Origin: Candidatus Mcinerneyibacteriota bacterium
GTDB lineage: Bacteria; AUK180; JAQVHJ01
Assembly (NCBI GenBank): GCA_030630935.1
Contig: DAOVMD010000118.1
Coordinates: 1 to 8,253 of the forward strand
Direction: 5' to 3'
Length of the DNA: 8,253 nt
Positions 261 to 7,929 of the stretch are shown in pieces. The position numbers and the translations under genes were made by a program. Position 1 is the first letter of the stretch. The number at the start of each line of letters is the position of its first letter. The notes below the pieces were generated by a model. That model did no database searches and had not been told where the DNA came from. It worked only from the letters and a program-made list of their open reading frames with translations.

Positions 261-1376
261 TTATAAACCTGTTTCTTTTAATTTCTTAATTAATTCTTTT
301 TGTTCTTCTGTCAATTTTTTCGGGAACTTAACAAGCACTTTTATAATTAAATCACCTCGTTTCCCTTGTGACGGAACTCCCTTTCCCTTGATTCTTAATT
401 TCGAGTTGGGCTGAGTTCCTGATGGTATCTTCATCTTGATCCTACCATCCATTGTTGGGACATTGATCTCGGTTCCCAATAATGCATTTACTAAAGTTAT
501 TGAAATTTCAACTTCTAAATTAAGACCATTCCTCTTAAACGTTGAGTGAGGTTGAACAAATATCCTTATAATTAAATCACCTGGCGGACCATTATTTATT
601 CCAAGAGCTCCTTTACCTTTTAAGCGAATCTTACTATTATTCTCAATGCCCCGTGGGATCTTTACCTTTATTGTTTTAAGAGTCACCAGTTTCCCTGCAC
701 CATTACATTTCTTACAGGGGGTTTCGATAATCTCACCCTTACCCTGACAGGCCGGGCAAACATAACTTGTTGCAAATGGTCCCTGATTAACAGAGATTGT
801 TCCTCTCCCCTGGCATTGGGAACATGAATTCTTTTTTGAACCGGGCTCCGCACCACTTCCATTACATTGCTCACATATACTTTCTGTTTCAAGTTTCAAG
901 AATTGATTTCCACCTTTAATCGCAGTTTCAAATGGAATTGTTATACTTGAAAGAATATTTTTCCCTCGTTGGGGAGCATGAGTTTGGGAGCTTGAAAAAT
1001 CTCCCAGGTCAAAAAACTGTGAGAAAATATCCTGGAATGAACCTCCTGTGTTTTTATAACTCTTTCGTCTTTTTCCCGCACTAAAATTCTTGAGAATATC
1101 CTCATAACTCATACCGCCGGAGCCGCCGGGAGCGGAACCGCCAAAATTAAATTGGCTGCCGTACTGTCGAATCATATCATATTTTTTTCTCTTTTCAGGA
1201 TTGGAAATAACATCGTGAGCTTCATTGATCTCCTTGAACTTCTCTTCTGCCTGTTTGTCCCCGGGATTTTTATCAGGATGATATTTCCTTACAAGCTTCA
1301 GATATTTCTTCTTGATCTCTGCGGGAGTAGCTTTCTCTGGTACTCCTAAAATTTTATAATAATCTTTTACTGCCAT
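261..1376 (-). CDS. dnaJ: Chaperone protein DnaJ (type A Hsp40)
   Basis: DnaJ is the cytoplasmic co-chaperone that binds unfolded clients, delivers them to DnaK and stimulates DnaK ATP hydrolysis. The 371-residue protein has the full type A layout and the usual family length. The J-domain spans about residues 5-70, with the essential HPD at 33-35. A Gly/Phe/Ser-rich linker follows at about 73-130. The zinc-binding region has four CXXCXGXG repeats at 168-175, 185-192, 207-214 and 221-228, all cysteines intact. The C-terminal client-binding domains run from about 230 to 352. The ATG at 1376 is followed by the typical DYYKILGV start. Its ribosome binding site is weak (GAG at 1386-1388, 9 nt away), which suggests coupling to htpX, whose stop is 36 bp upstream. 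It is the last gene of the operon. The family assignment is certain. Confidence 0.98.
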   Translation of the reverse strand: MAVKDYYKILGVPEKATPAEIKKKYLKLVRKYHPDKNPGDKQAEEKFKEINEAHDVISNPEKRKKYDMIRQYGSQFNFGGSAPGGSGGMSYEDILKNFSAGKRRKSYKNTGGSFQDIFSQFFDLGDFSSSQTHAPQRGKNILSSITIPFETAIKGGNQFLKLETESICEQCNGSGAEPGSKKNSCSQCQGRGTISVNQGPFATSYVCPACQGKGEIIETPCKKCNGAGKLVTLKTIKVKIPRGIENNSKIRLKGKGALGINNGPPGDLIIRIFVQPHSTFKRNGLNLEVEISITLVNALLGTEINVPTMDGRIKMKIPSGTQPNSKLRIKGKGVPSQGKRGDLIIKVLVKFPKKLTEEQKELIKKLKETGL

Positions 1377-1412: not shown

Positions 1413-2246
1413 CTAAATCATCTCCTTTAATTTAGTTATTCTCTCTTCAATCGGGGGATGAGTTCTAAAAAGATTCCCTAAAAAATTCTTCTTTAACGGG
1501 CTTGCAATAAAAAAATGTGCCGTGTTTCTTGCCTTATGCAAATCAGCCTGGGAATGCTGTGATATTTTTGCTAATGCATTTGCTAAATACATTGGGTTCC
1601 CTGTAATCCGGGCACTGCCGATATCAGCAGCATATTCTCTTGACCTGGATATTGCAAGTTGAATCAAAACAGCGACTATAGGTGCGAGAATGAAAAGTGC
1701 TAAGCTCCCGATGAGAGTACCCAAACCCCGTTTTCTACCACCGGCAAAAATTAAACTAAATCGAAGAATATATGCAACTGAAGAGACTATCCCAGCCATT
1801 GTTGCAGCTATCATATGAATTAGAATATCCCAATGTTTAATATGCGAGAGCTCATGGGCAATTACACCTTTTAGTTCGTTCTCGTCCAGGTTCTGAATTA
1901 AACCCTGAGTCAAACAAACCACACCGTGTGAAGGGTTTCTCCCTGTTGCAAATGCATTGGGAGATTTATGAGGAGAAACAAAAATCCTCGGAGTCGGGAT
2001 CTCGGCTTTTCTTGATAACTCATCAACCATCAAATATATTTCAGGTCTTGAACCATGGTCAACTTCCGTTGCTTTGTACATCTTTAAAATTATTTTATCA
2101 GAGAACCAATATGAAAAGAGATTTATGATTACTACAAATAATAACATAAATGCAAATCCATATAATCCACCAGCATAATAACCAACTACTAAAAGCAGGC
2201 AAGTTAAAAACATCAATAATATAAATGTCTTAATAAAATGTCTCAT
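1413..2246 (-). CDS. htpX: HtpX-type membrane zinc metalloprotease (M48B)
   Basis: HtpX is an inner-membrane protease that degrades misfolded membrane proteins. The 277-residue length fits the family. Two hydrophobic segments lie near the N-terminus (about 5-26 and 28-48). The zinc motif HELSH is at 131-135, and the third ligand is the Glu of SREYAAD (about 204). NAFATGR at 97-103 is a family signature. Two further hydrophobic stretches (about 139-165 and 178-200) flank the active-site region. The C-terminal THPPIEERI is typical of HtpX. The ATG at 2246 is preceded by an unusual GGGGG (2253-2257, 6 nt away) as probable ribosome binding site. It starts 50 bp after dnaK and is followed closely by dnaJ, placing a membrane quality-control protease inside a cytoplasmic chaperone operon. 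All catalytic residues are present. Confidence 0.97.
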   Translation of the reverse strand: MRHFIKTFILLMFLTCLLLVVGYYAGGLYGFAFMLLFVVIINLFSYWFSDKIILKMYKATEVDHGSRPEIYLMVDELSRKAEIPTPRIFVSPHKSPNAFATGRNPSHGVVCLTQGLIQNLDENELKGVIAHELSHIKHWDILIHMIAATMAGIVSSVAYILRFSLIFAGGRKRGLGTLIGSLALFILAPIVAVLIQLAISRSREYAADIGSARITGNPMYLANALAKISQHSQADLHKARNTAHFFIASPLKKNFLGNLFRTHPPIEERITKLKEMI

Positions 2247-2268: not shown

Positions 2269-2290
2269 CGGGGGAGTAAAAACTCCCCCG
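2269..2290 (-). promoter_or_regulatory. 9-bp GC-rich hairpin between dnaK and htpX
   Basis: CGGGGGAGT and ACTCCCCCG form a perfect 9-bp stem with a 4-nt loop, starting 6 nt after the dnaK stop codon. On the transcript the stem is followed only by AUUUUC, so it could be a leaky intrinsic terminator or an mRNA-stabilising/processing stem. The CCCCC of its 3' arm could alternatively pair with the GGGGG that serves as the htpX ribosome binding site at 2253-2257. The structure is seen directly; its role is inferred. Confidence 0.7.
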
Positions 2291-2296
2291 TAATTT

Positions 2297-4246
2297 TTAT
2301 TCTATCTCTTCATAATCAGCATCAATTACATTATCATCATCCTGATCTTTATCCTTCCCTTTTTCCTGCTCTGGTCCCGGACCTGGACCTGGACCTGCAT
2401 CTCCACCTGGTGGCGGCTGCTGACCCGGCTGAGGACCTGCTTGCTGATAAAGTCTTGAGGAGATATCAAACATTTTCTTTTTAATTGCTTCAGCAGATGA
2501 TTTAATCTCTTCTGCATCTTCACCCTTAACCTTCTCTTTTAATCCCACAATTAAATCTTCAAGTTCCTTTTTCTCAGCATCACTCATCTTCTCACCAAGA
2601 TCTTTTATCTGCTTCTCCGTTTGATAAATCATTGAATCGGCCATGTTTCTCGATTCAATCAGTTCTCTTTGCTTTTTATCAGCTTCCGCGTTCTTCTCCG
2701 CTTCCTTTGTCATCTGATCAATCTCTGCATCACTTAAACCGCCGGAAGCTTGAATCTTAATGCTTTGCTCCTTCCCGGTCGCTAAATCCTTTGCACTAAC
2801 TGTTAAAATTCCATTTGAATCAATATCAAATGAAACTTCAATCTGAGGAACTGCCCGGCGAGCCGGTGGGATTCCTGTTAACTGGAAACGGCCAATGGTC
2901 TTATTATAAGTTGCCATATCACGTTCACCTTGAAGAACATGAATATCTACCGTGGTCTGATTATCATCTGCAGTAGTAAATATCTCACTCTTACGAGTTG
3001 GGATTGCAGTGTTCTTCTCAATTAATTTTGTGTTTACTCCACCAAGGGTCTCGATACCCAGGGATAACGGTGTAACATCAACAAGGACAATATCCTTCAC
3101 ATCACCAGCGAGGACTCCACCCTGAACTGCTGCGCCAACCGCAACAACTTCATCAGGGTTAACACTTTTATTTCCAGGCTTTCCAAAAATCTTCTCAACA
3201 ATCTTCTGGACTGCAGGCATACGAGTCATGCCGCCAACTAAAAGAATCTCATCAAGTTCTGAAAACTTTAAACCAGAATCCTTAATCGCGGTCTTACAGG
3301 GTTTAACAGTTCTCTCAATTAAATCATCAACTAACTGCTCTAACTTGCTCCTGGATAATTTCACCATTAAATGCTTCGGTCCATTTGCATCCGCTGTAAT
3401 ATAAGGAATATTTATATCTGTCTCTAATTTAGAAGATAATTCTATCTTGGCTTTTTCAGCATTCTCCTTTAATCTCTGCAAGGCCATGGGATCCTTCCTT
3501 AAATCAATTCCTTCTTGCTTGATAAATTCTTCCGCAATAAAATTTATGATCCTCTGGTCAAAGTCATCACCACCTAAATGCGTATCACCATTCGTGGCCT
3601 TGACCTCAAAAACAGTCTCACCTTCTTCGGAACCAAGCTCCAAAATCGAGATATCAAATGTTCCACCACCAAGGTCAAATACCGCAATCTTCTCATCCTT
3701 CTTTTTGTTAAGGTTAAAAGCAAGAGCTGCAGCAGTCGGTTCATTTACAATTCGCATTACTTCTAAACCAGCAATCTTACCCGCGTCTTTTGTTGCTTTA
3801 CGCTGGGAATCATTGAAATAAGCCGGAACCGTTATAACCGCTTTATCAACTGCCTCACCAAGATAATCCTCTGCAACTGATTTCATCTTTTGTAAAATTA
3901 ATGCCGAGATCTCCTGGGGTGTATATTTCTTACCACCAATATTTACAACTGCATTACCGTTCTTGTCCTTATCAACTTTATAAGGAACTAACTTTATCTC
4001 TTCCTTGACTTCCTTGTATTTCCTACCCATGAACCTCTTAATTGAAAAGATTGTGTTCTGGGAATTCGTAACCGCTTGACGCTTTGCGGTTACACCAACT
4101 AAACGCTCACCACTAGATGAAAACGCAACTATGGATGGAGTCGTGCGTGTGCCTTCCTGGTTAACAATAACCTTTGGCTCACCAGCTTCCATAACAGCTA
4201 CACATGAATTGGTTGTTCCAAGGTCAATTCCTATTATCTTACCCAT
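2297..4246 (-). CDS. dnaK: Chaperone protein DnaK (Hsp70)
   Basis: DnaK is the ATP-driven cytoplasmic Hsp70 that binds and releases unfolded polypeptides with DnaJ and a nucleotide exchange factor. The 649 residues cover the whole family. The nucleotide-binding domain (1 to about 385) has [10 protein letters not shown] at 5-14, the catalytic Lys70, [10 protein letters not shown] at 191-200 and VGGMTRMP at 337-344. The interdomain linker IVLVD is at 386-390. The beta substrate-binding domain follows, then a helical lid to about 600. The tail (about 602-649) is unusual: Gln/Pro/Gly-rich with repeated GP dipeptides, then a Lys/Asp stretch, ending in the familiar acidic DADYEEIE. A hexamer repeat (ACCTGG type, 2381-2397) encodes part of the GP run. 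The start is fixed by AGGAGG at 4255-4260, 8 nt before the ATG. It lies 89 bp after hsp20. No grpE is present in the window. Confidence 0.99.
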
Positions 4247-4272: not shown

Positions 4273-4294
4273 TCCGGGGACTTTTGTCCCCGGA
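4273..4294 (-). promoter_or_regulatory. 9-bp GC-rich hairpin in the hsp20-dnaK gap
   Basis: TCCGGGGAC and GTCCCCGGA form a perfect 9-bp stem around a 4-nt loop. The stem ends 12 nt before the AGGAGG of dnaK. No U-run follows on the minus-strand transcript, so it is not a standard terminator. It may stabilise or define the 5' end of a processed dnaK mRNA, or reduce read-through from hsp20, which would set different hsp20 and dnaK levels. The stem is seen; its role is inferred. Confidence 0.7.
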
Positions 4295-4335: not shown

Positions 4336-4749
4336 TTATTGAAGATCAATCTTGATCTCTTTTGGTTTGGATTTCTCTGACTTGGGAAGCTCAAGAATTA
4401 ATATACCATCTTTAAAGTTTGCCTTAATATTTGAACTGTCAATCTCAGACGTTAATCGGAAAAACCTCTGAAACCGACCGTAAGAACGCTCTTTCAATAA
4501 AGAATCAGTACCTTCTTCAAGCTTTTCAACCTTCTTCTCTCCACTAATCGTAATAACATCTTCAAGAAGTGTAATGTTAAGAGCATTCTTATCTACACCG
4601 GGAACCTCTACCTGGATAACTATCGACTCCTTCGTCTCTGAAATATCTACAGCAGGATTCCAAACATTCTCACCTGAAAAATTTTTGAACCAGGGAGAGT
4701 GATTAAAGAAATCTGTGTCCTTTAAATGATGAAAGTTTCTAATAAACAT
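4336..4749 (-). CDS. hsp20: Small heat-shock protein, Hsp20 / alpha-crystallin family
   Basis: This is an ATP-independent holdase that forms oligomers and keeps denaturing proteins soluble for DnaK/DnaJ. From the ATG at 4749 it has 137 residues, usual for the family. A short aromatic N-terminal arm (1-28) is followed by the alpha-crystallin domain (about 30-122), which contains the signature ANFKDGILILELPK at 110-123. The C-terminal extension carries the IXI anchor as IKI at 132-134. A longer frame opens at 4845, but the 4749 start is preferred: AAGGAGG lies 5 nt upstream, the extra 32 residues resemble no Hsp20 arm, and the longer version would overlap the promoter element at 4802-4817. It is the first gene of the chaperone operon, 89 bp before dnaK. 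Confidence 0.96.
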   Translation of the reverse strand: MFIRNFHHLKDTDFFNHSPWFKNFSGENVWNPAVDISETKESIVIQVEVPGVDKNALNITLLEDVITISGEKKVEKLEEGTDSLLKERSYGRFQRFFRLTSEIDSSNIKANFKDGILILELPKSEKSKPKEIKIDLQ

Positions 4750-4761: not shown

Positions 4762-4798
4762 TACTTTTTTATGTTTTCTCTCAAAGAACACTTTCTTA

Positions 4799-4817
4799 TT
4801 GGCAATCTCTGTGCCAA
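4799..4817 (-). promoter_or_regulatory. Sigma-54 (RpoN) promoter candidate upstream of hsp20
   Basis: On the minus strand the element reads TTGGCACAGAGATTGCCAA. TGGCAC (4816-4811) is followed after 5 nt by TTGC (4805-4802), giving the diagnostic GG-N10-GC spacing of -24/-12 promoters. Predicted transcription would start near 4790, leaving a leader of about 40 nt that contains the hsp20 ribosome binding site. Sigma-54 promoters require an activator ATPase bound upstream. The same bases form a perfect 6-bp palindrome (TTGGCA-N7-TGCCAA), so a repressor operator is the main alternative. No sigma-32 promoter and no CIRCE element was found here. Confidence 0.65.
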
Positions 4818-4853
4818 CTTTATTGATTTTATCAGTACCTACCACTATCTCTC

Positions 4854-4881
4854 ATTATATTGGGCTTATTTTTTCTGTCTC
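4854..4881 (-). promoter_or_regulatory. Possible sigma-70 promoter upstream of the sigma-54 element
   Basis: The minus strand has a perfect TATAAT (4859-4854) preceded at 16 bp by GAGACA (4881-4876), which matches the -35 consensus at 4 of 6 positions. Transcription would begin near 4847, upstream of the sigma-54 candidate, and would give the chaperone operon a basal level. The poor -35 keeps confidence modest. Confidence 0.4.
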
Positions 4882-5368
4882 TTCAACAACACCTGAACCC
4901 TATCCTTACTTATAGCTGTTTCATTATGATACTTATGTGTCGTTTTGCTATATCGCTTCATGCCTTTTGTGTTGTTTTGATACAGTCTTTTAAATAGATT
5001 GCATTCAGCTTCGCTGTAGAAAGCAGATATCAAAGAACAGAGAGCAGAGAACAGTCGTTTTAAAGTTTTTAAATAGTAGAACAAGGTTTATTTTAGTTTA
5101 ATTTCCCCGTTCGTGTTTGTGGTTTGAGACGTGATTTGTAAGATGCTCCTTTTTACAGGAGCAAACTCAAACTGATTACCCTAACAGTGATTTATTAGAT
5201 TCAAAAATATTCTTTATTATTAAATATCATAATTGGAGCTTTAGTTTTTATCGGTATTATTCAAGTAGTTTCTTTTATGGAAATCAATTTAGTACAATTT
5301 GTTTTTTTTAATTATGAATAGACTAATTTGCAAAATTTTTAATTGTAACATGAATTTTTCATTTGAAT
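4882..5368. other. Non-coding spacer between the restriction-modification module and the chaperone operon
   Basis: No convincing gene is seen in this stretch of almost 500 bp. A 72-codon frame (4866-5084, minus) starts with TTG, lacks a ribosome binding site and resembles no family I know. The region holds a purine-rich tract with two AGAACAG copies (about 5033-5054), an 8-bp dyad AACAACAC/GTGTTGTT (4885-4892 and 4969-4976) and a nested hairpin (5122-5172). The left arm of a 12-bp inverted repeat also lies here (5194-5205). The dyad sits 70-160 bp upstream of the sigma-54 candidate, where activators often bind, but it could be chance. Confidence 0.5.
5122..5172. other. Nested hairpin structure
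   Basis: An outer 7-bp stem, GTTTGAG (5122-5128) with CTCAAAC (5166-5172), encloses an inner perfect 7-bp stem, TGCTCCT (5144-5150) with AGGAGCA (5157-5163), loop TTTTAC. The internal loop is asymmetric: 15 nt on one side and 2 nt on the other. TGTAA (5137-5141) and TTACA (5153-5157) could form a competing stem. No U-tract follows on either strand, so a terminator is unlikely. It could be part of a structured RNA or a mobile-element end. No known RNA family is recognised. Confidence 0.5.
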
Positions 5369-5373
5369 CTAAT
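5194..5373. repeat. 12-bp inverted repeat bounding 180 bp at the 3' end of the nuclease gene
   Basis: ATTAGATTCAAA (5194-5205) and TTTGAATCTAAT (5362-5373) are exact reverse complements, with 156 bp between them. The right arm overlaps the last codons and stop of the nuclease frame (stop at 5369-5371). No matching target duplication flanks the unit and no gene lies inside. It may be a miniature element end, a remnant of insertion, or a long-range 3' UTR stem. In such AT-rich DNA chance is possible but less likely at 12 bp. Confidence 0.45.
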
Positions 5374-6112
5374 CTTGTGAAATTAAAATTACATCAGAGA
5401 CAGCAGTATATTGTTCACCATTCCATTCAAAGTTGACATTATGTATATTATCCTTTGAAAATTTATCCAAGTATTCATATATTTTATCTACTAATAACTG
5501 CTTTGCTCTTTTTAATTTCCAAGATTCAAAATTATTACTTTTTTTCACAAGAATTAGGAATAGACGATTACTTGAATCAAATCTTCTTGCTCCCTGATTT
5601 TCATATAACCATCTTATCAAAGATTCTGGGTTTTCACTAATTTCTTCTAATAATCCATTTCTAAAATCATCTAATTCTTGAATTAATTGTTGACAATTTT
5701 CTGCAGGGTTATCTTTAACCATTGCCCATAAAGTTTCAGTTAATCTGCTACCTAAGCTATTATCAATTGGTATATCATTTAATCTTGAAACTTTTTTTAA
5801 TAAAGTAGACTCTGGTTTTAATCTTGAATCTTTTCTTTTATATTTCACATAACCTTCTGGCAGATAAGTTACTTTTAAATCAAATGGTATATTATCAATA
5901 AAGAAATCGATTTTTTTTATTAATCCAACTGCAGGTAATACTCTTTCATGGTCTTTTAAAATATCCTCAATAATTATTGATGTCCAATGATTATACCAAG
6001 AACATATTACATATCCTCTCAAACTATTATGAATATCGTTTTCTATTGCTATTAATAATTCATCATACAAAACAATCTTTTTTACATATTTATCTACAAT
6101 AGTTTTTTCCAA
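5369..6112 (-). CDS. PD-(D/E)XK-type restriction endonuclease, C-terminal portion
   Basis: This is the probable nuclease partner of the methyltransferase. Counting from the TTG at 6112 (247 residues), the segment IDFFIDNIPFDLKV holds Asp69, then Asp78 and Lys80. This D-X8-D-X-K arrangement, on predicted strands after a helix with Glu49/Asp50, fits the PD-(D/E)XK metal site. An aromatic SWYNHW motif (38-43) precedes it. The rest is helical and charged and names no specific family, so the recognition site is unknown. The start is doubtful: TTG has no ribosome binding site at a proper distance, and the same frame is open upstream for 24 more codons to the TAA at 6185-6187. The frame therefore looks like the larger 3' part of a gene broken by a nonsense codon. 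It is strongly AT-rich, like the methylase, and unlike the chaperone genes. Confidence 0.65.
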   Translation of the reverse strand: MEKTIVDKYVKKIVLYDELLIAIENDIHNSLRGYVICSWYNHWTSIIIEDILKDHERVLPAVGLIKKIDFFIDNIPFDLKVTYLPEGYVKYKRKDSRLKPESTLLKKVSRLNDIPIDNSLGSRLTETLWAMVKDNPAENCQQLIQELDDFRNGLLEEISENPESLIRWLYENQGARRFDSSNRLFLILVKKSNNFESWKLKRAKQLLVDKIYEYLDKFSKDNIHNVNFEWNGEQYTAVSDVILISQD

Positions 6113-6184
6113 ATTATTTTGATATAGCCCACCCCAATTAAATACATGAACCTGATATAATTGACTAATTAAATTTTCTTCATT

Positions 6185-6451
6185 TTATCGTCTAAGCCTT
6201 CTTTTGGAGTCATATAACTCTCTAATTACACTATTTATTTTTGTATCTGATATTTCATTATTATAAAAATACTCAAGCAATTTCCTAGTCTTTATATTTG
6301 AAATATCTAAATCTATACTATCAGCTAAATATTCCATTTGATCTTTTCTAGATAATGATCTTAACTTTAGAAATTTAAGACCAGCAGATGTTTGAGATAA
6401 CTCTCTTATTTTGTTATTTTCAAATTTTTTCTTAGCTTTATTAAAATTCAT
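6185..6451 (-). CDS. 88-residue basic helical protein, likely N-terminal part of the endonuclease
   Basis: I do not recognise this protein as a stand-alone family. It is rich in Lys, Arg, Asn and Leu, looks all-helical, and has no transmembrane segment or cysteine. It ends in the very basic SKRRLRR directly before the TAA. Its ATG overlaps the methyltransferase stop as ATGA, and AAAGGA lies 11 nt upstream (6463-6468), so translation is probably coupled to the methylase. It is not a convincing controller (C) protein: those have a clear helix-turn-helix and usually precede the nuclease with their own operator. The preferred view is the N-terminal domain of the nuclease that continues in the same frame beyond the stop. 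A small independent accessory subunit remains possible. Confidence 0.55.
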   Translation of the reverse strand: MNFNKAKKKFENNKIRELSQTSAGLKFLKLRSLSRKDQMEYLADSIDLDISNIKTRKLLEYFYNNEISDTKINSVIRELYDSKRRLRR

Positions 6452-7929
6452 TTTTCTGTATATCCTTTCTCTGGTACTTCAAATGACCATTTTGGTATAT
6501 TAACAACTGTATCCTTTATCTTATCTTTATTTCCTTTTGAAAAAATCAATGCTAAATCATGTGTGAGCCCACCTTTTCTATTATCTTGGACAACTGATCG
6601 TGCTGAATAAGCACAAGGAAAGTAACCTATGTAATTCATTTTTATCCCACGACATTTTTCTAGTAAAAGATCAAAAAACTCCCAACTCTCAGGTTTTTTA
6701 GCATTAAAGATTAAAACAAATACACCGTTTTTTGATAATATATTTTGGATCAATCTAACAAAATTTATCATATCGCTTTTATAAAGATCTTTAGTTTTAT
6801 CTCTTTCTTTTGCATTCGACACTACAATTTCATCATCATAATTTATTTCATGTCCTAAAATAGTATTCCACATACTACTTAGTTCTAAATAAGGAATTCT
6901 ATCACTATGAGGTGGATCAGTTACAATTAAATCAATGGAGTTGTTGGGAAATTTACTTAATATCTTTTGACACGGTTGATCTAACAATAAACATTCGTAG
7001 TTTGATTGGGATTTAAAAAACTTATTTATATTTGAAGTTATTTTAACATCGATACTTTCATCATCATCATAAATAGCTTTAATCAATTTCTTAAGCCTTC
7101 TTTCAAAGCAGTTCCATACATTTATTTCAAAATGTGTTTTTGGTTTCCAATACCCAATAACCCAACTACCAACTTCAATCTTTTTTTTCTTATTTTTACT
7201 TCTATTCATAATCGCAAATACCATTTTACTCATTTGTCCAGAAGCTGCTGTCAAGCATAATTTCAGTGGCAGTTGCAAATGTTGTGGTTCTTCATTAATA
7301 ATATCTATTAACAAATCAATGTTTCTTAATGCTCTCTTTGTAAAGATATCATAAATATTCATATCATTTTTTGTATTAATTCTTGAATTATGAAAAGATT
7401 TGAATTTACTTAAGTGTTTGGTTTTGTAATTATCAAAAGATTGAATTAGCACAAAATCTTTCTTATCTGGAGATTTAATAGTTTTATTTCTTTTTTTTAA
7501 ATACCATACTTCTAAAATAGAATTTCCCTCCCATAAATAATGGGATGCTGTTTCTGTATTTGTTCTGTAACTTGAATTTATTTTTTCTTTCACTTTATTC
7601 TCAATTCTTTGATAAGAATTTTTTATTTCATTTATATCTGGAGGGGCTAATATTGTTTTTGTCAAATCAATACAAAAAGGGTTAATATCTATTCCAATAA
7701 CTTTTCGATTTAATTTTATTGCTTCACGAACTGTTACACCAGAACCGACAAAGGGATCTAATATTATACTATTTTCTGAAGACAAATTGGATATTAAATA
7801 ACTAATTAACTCATAAGGTTTTTTGCCCCAATACTTATGAAAAGCATAAAAACCTTTATATCCTTTAGGTTTAATTATTAATTTTTCAATTTCACTATTA
7901 GTTTTTGGAATTAGCTCTAATTGCTTCAT
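6448..7929 (-). CDS. DNA methyltransferase (N4-cytosine/N6-adenine type) of a restriction-modification system
   Basis: This enzyme should transfer a methyl group from S-adenosylmethionine to an exocyclic amino group in a specific DNA site, protecting host DNA. In its 493 residues HKYWGKKP (31-38) corresponds to the motif X region. DPFVGSG (58-64) is SAM-binding motif I, and VIGIDINP (77-84) is motif II. Catalytic motif IV is TDPPH (337-341), followed by SDRIPYLELSSMW. Motif I before IV with about 270 residues between suggests an alpha-like order, with the target-recognition region in the middle. His341 replaces the usual aromatic residue of DPPY/F/W. Adenine versus cytosine specificity cannot be decided. 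The ATG at 7929 is the only plausible start, since an in-frame TAA lies just upstream; AGAGGA is 12 nt away. It is the first major gene of the module and overlaps the next frame by 4 bp. Confidence 0.93.
   Translation of the reverse strand: MKQLELIPKTNSEIEKLIIKPKGYKGFYAFHKYWGKKPYELISYLISNLSSENSIILDPFVGSGVTVREAIKLNRKVIGIDINPFCIDLTKTILAPPDINEIKNSYQRIENKVKEKINSSYRTNTETASHYLWEGNSILEVWYLKKRNKTIKSPDKKDFVLIQSFDNYKTKHLSKFKSFHNSRINTKNDMNIYDIFTKRALRNIDLLIDIINEEPQHLQLPLKLCLTAASGQMSKMVFAIMNRSKNKKKKIEVGSWVIGYWKPKTHFEINVWNCFERRLKKLIKAIYDDDESIDVKITSNINKFFKSQSNYECLLLDQPCQKILSKFPNNSIDLIVTDPPHSDRIPYLELSSMWNTILGHEINYDDEIVVSNAKERDKTKDLYKSDMINFVRLIQNILSKNGVFVLIFNAKKPESWEFFDLLLEKCRGIKMNYIGYFPCAYSARSVVQDNRKGGLTHDLALIFSKGNKDKIKDTVVNIPKWSFEVPEKGYTEK

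Follow-up and report, generated by a model that had tools for sequence, protein, structure and literature searches.

The window analyzed here, a stretch of 8,253 nucleotides from a genome of Candidatus Mcinerneyibacteriota (G000; 3.16 Mb, 80% complete), contains a chaperone locus on the minus strand, with a predicted sigma-54 promoter in front of its first gene, hsp20. In the direction of transcription, the features of this locus are:

4921..4941, minus strand: candidate binding site for an activator, GACACATAAGTATCATAATGA, ~100 nt 5' of the promoter, proposed from the alignment of the G000 and G001 promoters
4854..4881, minus strand: weak sigma-70-like site, GAGACA-N16-TATAAT (10 of 12 consensus positions), a possible secondary promoter
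4801..4817, minus strand: predicted sigma-54 -24/-12 promoter element TTGGCACAGAGATTGCC, exact match, conserved in all seven genomes of the phylum; predicted +1 at ~4790
4336..4749, minus strand: hsp20, small heat-shock protein, 137 aa (PF00011, E 2.3e-21)
4273..4294, minus strand: strong hairpin between hsp20 and dnaK, without a long T run in G000 and with a T run in G001
2297..4246, minus strand: dnaK, 649 aa (NF001413/TIGR02350, above the cut-off)
2269..2290, minus strand: strong hairpin between dnaK and htpX
1413..2246, minus strand: htpX, M48 metalloprotease, 277 aa (PF01435; the best NCBIfam matches are HtpX)
261..1376, minus strand: dnaJ, 371 aa (TIGR02349, above the cut-off)

Upstream of the chaperone locus, the minus strand (5369-7929) encodes a DNA methyltransferase (N6_N4_Mtase), followed downstream by two small unassigned ORFs; together these are probably a restriction-modification or defense set. 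Downstream of dnaJ, at positions 20-150, the similar stretches GAGTATTACATTAAATAATACAA and GAGTATTATATTAACTTATACAA are located on either side of a CCCCG-T6-CGGGG hairpin.

The predicted promoter element upstream of hsp20

The sequence-only reading had placed a TGGCAC-N5-TTGC element with the exact GG-N10-GC spacing in front of hsp20, and this was confirmed as an exact minus-strand match at 4816-4802 (TTGGCACAGAGATTGCC with its flanks, 4817-4801). The ATG of hsp20 (4749) lies ~53 nt past the -12 element, with AGGAGG just 5' of it, so that a transcript starting near 4790, as predicted, would carry a 5' UTR of ~41 nt. An alternative GTG start at 4845, which would make the element coding, was rejected: the N-terminal extension is not kept (with the extended protein as the query, the match in G001 starts at residue 28), and the strong ribosome binding site before the ATG at 4749 also speaks against it.

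Within the window, matches to the element with up to two mismatches are at the chance level (3 found vs 3.6 expected from shuffles), so the window alone is no proof of a promoter. The exact TGGCAC-N5-TTGC sequence, in turn, occurs 5 times in G000, compared to 0 occurrences of the reversed control. A chance match of a degenerate motif, with which the count in the window would agree, is nevertheless a practically negligible explanation, given that the match is exact, has the right orientation and distance, and recurs at the orthologous locus of all seven genomes of the phylum.

In the window, the element also forms a perfect inverted repeat, TTGGCA-N7-TGCCAA, as expected if it were the palindromic operator of a repressor that merely resembles a sigma-54 promoter. 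However, the repeat is broken at the orthologous loci of G001 (TTGGCACGGGCATTGCAATA), G003 (TTGGCACACAGTTTGCACAA) and G005 (TTGGCACGATGGTTGCTATA), where TGGCAC-N5-TTGC is exact, which removes the operator reading and makes it highly improbable. Another alternative is that the sigma-70-like site at 4881-4854 is the main promoter and the sigma-54 element a minor or conditional one. The 10 of 12 matches to the consensus are compatible with such an arrangement, as are the tandem housekeeping and sigma-54 promoters of the chlamydial hrcA-grpE-dnaK operon (PMC8762339), but sites of this quality are found in the window at the chance level (2 vs 2.6 expected from shuffles), and the -35 box is not conserved in G001 whereas the sigma-54 element is. 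We therefore consider a leading role of the sigma-70-like site unlikely.

A search for the sigma-54 machinery, as the sequence-only reading had called for, found it encoded in the genome. The rpoN gene is intact in G000, coding for a 479-aa RpoN with a canonical region I and the RpoN box ITKYREQMG, and there are 11 strong matches to the sigma-54 activator domain (about a dozen genes). The characteristic loop takes the form GSFTGA in one activator each from G000 and G001, and GAFTGA in the f2 genomes. Two further sigma-54 elements of G000 have apparent counterparts in G001, one before a gene for an ABC-transporter-like ATPase and the other before a short sigma-70-like gene; therefore, sigma-54 apparently is in ordinary use in this organism. 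With both rpoN and activators present and the element kept in relatives, the proposed sigma-54 reading gains support, and the element very probably functions as an RpoN-dependent promoter of hsp20.

Further details were noted for other sigma-54 elements in these genomes. The element before the gene for a 115-120 aa protein (G000:C226:3318, G001:C395:3605) is kept in both genera; the similarity of this protein to sigma-70 factors is limited to their front part, and it weakly matches the RpoH profile. Prepilin-like genes, with a type IV pilin signal, are found behind sigma-54 elements in several genomes of the phylum (G004:C12, G006:C312, G001:C421).

Conservation within and beyond the phylum

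The collection used contains seven genomes of the phylum, G000-G006. Conservation of the -24/-12 element upstream of hsp20 or dnaK in relatives, which had been suggested as a check, was found in all seven, at the orthologous place. The element precedes hsp20-dnaK-htpX-dnaJ in G000 and G001, which share this gene order, and hsp20-dnaK-dnaJ in G003, G004 (with two tandem hsp20 genes) and G006. In G002 and G005, hsp20 is internally deleted, leaving between the promoter and dnaK a short remnant that lacks the alpha-crystallin core; the distance from the element to dnaK is 259 nt in G002 and 209 nt in G005. A search for a second hsp20 gene elsewhere in these two genomes found none. The boundaries of the two deletions differ, and they look independent. 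Alignment of G000 with G001 shows identical -24 and -12 blocks separated by a differing N-spacer. Such retention of the element beyond its surroundings at orthologous loci is, in our view, the decisive evidence for the predicted sigma-54 promoter.

Outside the phylum, the element was scored, out of 13, upstream of hsp20 at 20 loci taken from diverse genomes. Scores of 12-13, which shuffled sequences attained in 0 to 0.3% of cases, were clearly set apart from the rest; two loci, L002 and L020, were underscored, the scanned stretch having missed their promoter. The element precedes hsp20 in G013 and G023, and in G007, the sole representative of its own, different phylum in the collection, it is found before hsp20, directly before dnaK and before groES. 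Ignavibacteria appeared negative under the strict GG-N10-GC pattern, but relaxing the -12 part revealed a TTGT variant in nine loci: TTGGCAC-N5-TTGTA, with TTGGCAT in one locus, occurs in all nine, ~60-80 nt before hsp20, and eight of these loci also have dnaK further downstream. Because TTGT at -12 departs from the consensus, the evidence from Ignavibacteria is weaker; TTGT might be a lineage-specific form of the -12 element.

Probable extent of the operon and proposed division of chaperone control

The sequence-only reading had extended sigma-54 control from hsp20 to the entire hsp20-dnaK-htpX-dnaJ set, a proposal for which the evidence points both ways. On the one hand, the promoter is kept before dnaK where hsp20 is no longer intact; its survival after the loss of hsp20 in G002 and G005 argues that it also serves dnaK. 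On the other hand, strong hairpins occupy the hsp20-dnaK and dnaK-htpX gaps in both G000 and G001, with differing sequences. If these are terminators or transcript boundaries, the sigma-54 promoter would serve hsp20 only, and dnaK, htpX and dnaJ would be transcribed mainly from other promoters. The presence of the hairpins in both genera of the family favors this possibility, in particular in G001, where the first hairpin is followed by a T run in a terminator-like arrangement (TTTTTATTATTTTTT) and may stop much of the transcription. Against it, the hairpins in the window have no proper T run, the promoter was kept 209-259 nt before dnaK in G002 and G005 despite the reduction of hsp20 to a remnant, and G007 has the element immediately before dnaK. 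On balance, we regard restriction to hsp20 as rather unlikely, and the sigma-54 promoter probably serves dnaK and the genes behind it as well. Because of the strong hairpins, co-transcription of all four genes is rated only as likely, and a reasonable reading is that partial termination or mRNA processing would yield more Hsp20 than DnaK.

The usual regulators of chaperone operons had been described as not visible. For HrcA/CIRCE, this holds at hsp20-dnaK-htpX-dnaJ but not for the genome, which has both, with CIRCE at groEL. HrcA is encoded in six of the seven genomes of the phylum, the exception being G001 (72% complete), and CIRCE with at most one mismatch was detected in six of the seven, the match in G004 having three mismatches. 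In the five genomes in which its location was examined, CIRCE is found at groEL or groES-groEL, and the sole CIRCE of G000, with up to three mismatches allowed, lies upstream of groEL on contig C280. Control of hsp20-dnaK-htpX-dnaJ by HrcA/CIRCE was thus rejected, CIRCE being present only at groE(S)L. CIRCE stands directly before groEL, with no groES in between, in G000 and G001, and the other family of the phylum has the groES-groEL order.

Sigma-32 control was likewise rejected: no match to RpoH above the TIGR02392 cut-off was obtained in the eight genomes searched, including G000 at 80% completeness. A 278-aa RpoD/RpoS-like sigma factor is encoded in G000. Given the confinement of CIRCE to groE(S)L and the lack of RpoH matches above the cut-off, we propose that chaperone control in this phylum is split, with HrcA apparently governing groE and sigma-54 governing hsp20, dnaK and dnaJ. 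Compared with HrcA/CIRCE regulons, G000 is similar in having CIRCE at a chaperone gene, groEL, and differs in having none at hsp20-dnaK-htpX-dnaJ.

Activator candidates and relation to known systems

Sigma-54 promoters stay inactive unless an ATP-driven activator is present; the proposed promoter would therefore tie hsp20-dnaK-dnaJ to a specific sensor. In the alignment of the G000 and G001 promoters, a second conserved block lies ~100 nt upstream (4921-4941 in the window), and in G001 this block takes the form of an inverted repeat of 11 bp, CAATATGATAC-N5-GTATCATATTG. The half-sites are of the TGTATCA type in G000 and of the TGTCA type in the other genomes. In eleven chaperone promoters, TGTCA, a motif picked after looking at the sequences, occurs 15 times compared to 4.3 +/- 2.0 in shuffled sequences, and 19 other sigma-54 promoters contain it 5 times. 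The Ignavibacteria promoters played no part in the choice of the motif; they contain 18 occurrences vs 5.2 +/- 2.2 in shuffled sequences, a count that is not independent because these sequences are related. The Ignavibacteria sites are mostly located at ~-124 and ~-54, 70 bp apart. Taken together, these patterns suggest that an activator site is likely to exist upstream of the chaperone promoter.

No activator gene linked to the chaperone locus was found. Among the activators of G000, the one on contig C376 belongs to the only group with reciprocal best hits in all seven genomes compared, G007 included. Because it occurs together with genes for a sensor kinase, a coiled-coil protein and envelope-type proteins, it looks like part of an envelope two-component system, and it is only a candidate for the chaperone locus.

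Under the model we favor, sigma-54 RNA polymerase would wait in a closed complex on the -24/-12 element of the hsp20 promoter until remodeled by an activator ATPase bound ~100 nt upstream, the signal presumably being protein-folding or envelope stress. Transcription of dnaK, htpX and dnaJ would follow by partial read-through past the intercistronic hairpins, and groE would be regulated apart by HrcA/CIRCE, the core chaperones of the phylum being divided between a repressor circuit and a sigma-54 activator circuit.

Several known systems resemble this arrangement in part. A sigma-54 promoter before a small heat-shock gene, as here, was reported for E. coli ibpB (Kuczynska-Wisnik et al. 2001, as cited in PMC4316790); the E. 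coli promoter is internal to a sigma-32 operon, whereas the element described here heads hsp20-dnaK-htpX-dnaJ in a genome with no RpoH above the cut-off. In Chlamydia trachomatis, hrcA-grpE-dnaK has tandem sigma-66 and sigma-54 promoters (PMC8762339), so that, similarly, a dnaK operon has a sigma-54 promoter in an organism that lacks a typical heat-shock sigma factor, but the chlamydial HrcA also represses the dnaK operon, unlike the present case, with CIRCE confined to groE. The consulted passages of the D. vulgaris sigma-54 regulome report (PMC4641369) list no such operon. A further precedent is a 2025 survey (PMC12316311), which for Bacteroidota and Planctomycetota found an enrichment of Hsp20, DnaK, DnaJ, GrpE and GroES/EL downstream of predicted sigma-54 promoters. 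That survey likewise places chaperone gene groups behind predicted sigma-54 promoters; it covers other phyla, consists mainly of statistical enrichment of orthologous groups, and includes neither the present locus, nor retention of the promoter after hsp20 loss, nor the split with CIRCE. The phylum-wide conservation, the persistence of the promoter where hsp20 was lost and the recurring half-sites provide independent support for its prediction of sigma-54 control of chaperones in several phyla. The locus described here is thus a well-supported further case of a recently recognized kind; what distinguishes it is the clean separation from HrcA control.

The arrangement would place core folding machinery under a specific sensor, instead of a heat-labile repressor or sigma factor. 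With the element conserved across the phylum, the promoter kept after the loss of hsp20, and half-sites shared with Ignavibacteria, the missing activator becomes a well-defined target. More tentatively, a dedicated activator acting on TGTCA-type half-sites might sense unfolded protein and, via sigma-54, run the hsp20/dnaK/dnaJ branch in several phyla. If so, these phyla would comprise that of G000, Ignavibacteria and the G007 lineage, and this would be a type of heat-shock control beside alternative sigma factors and the HrcA, HspR and CtsR repressors.
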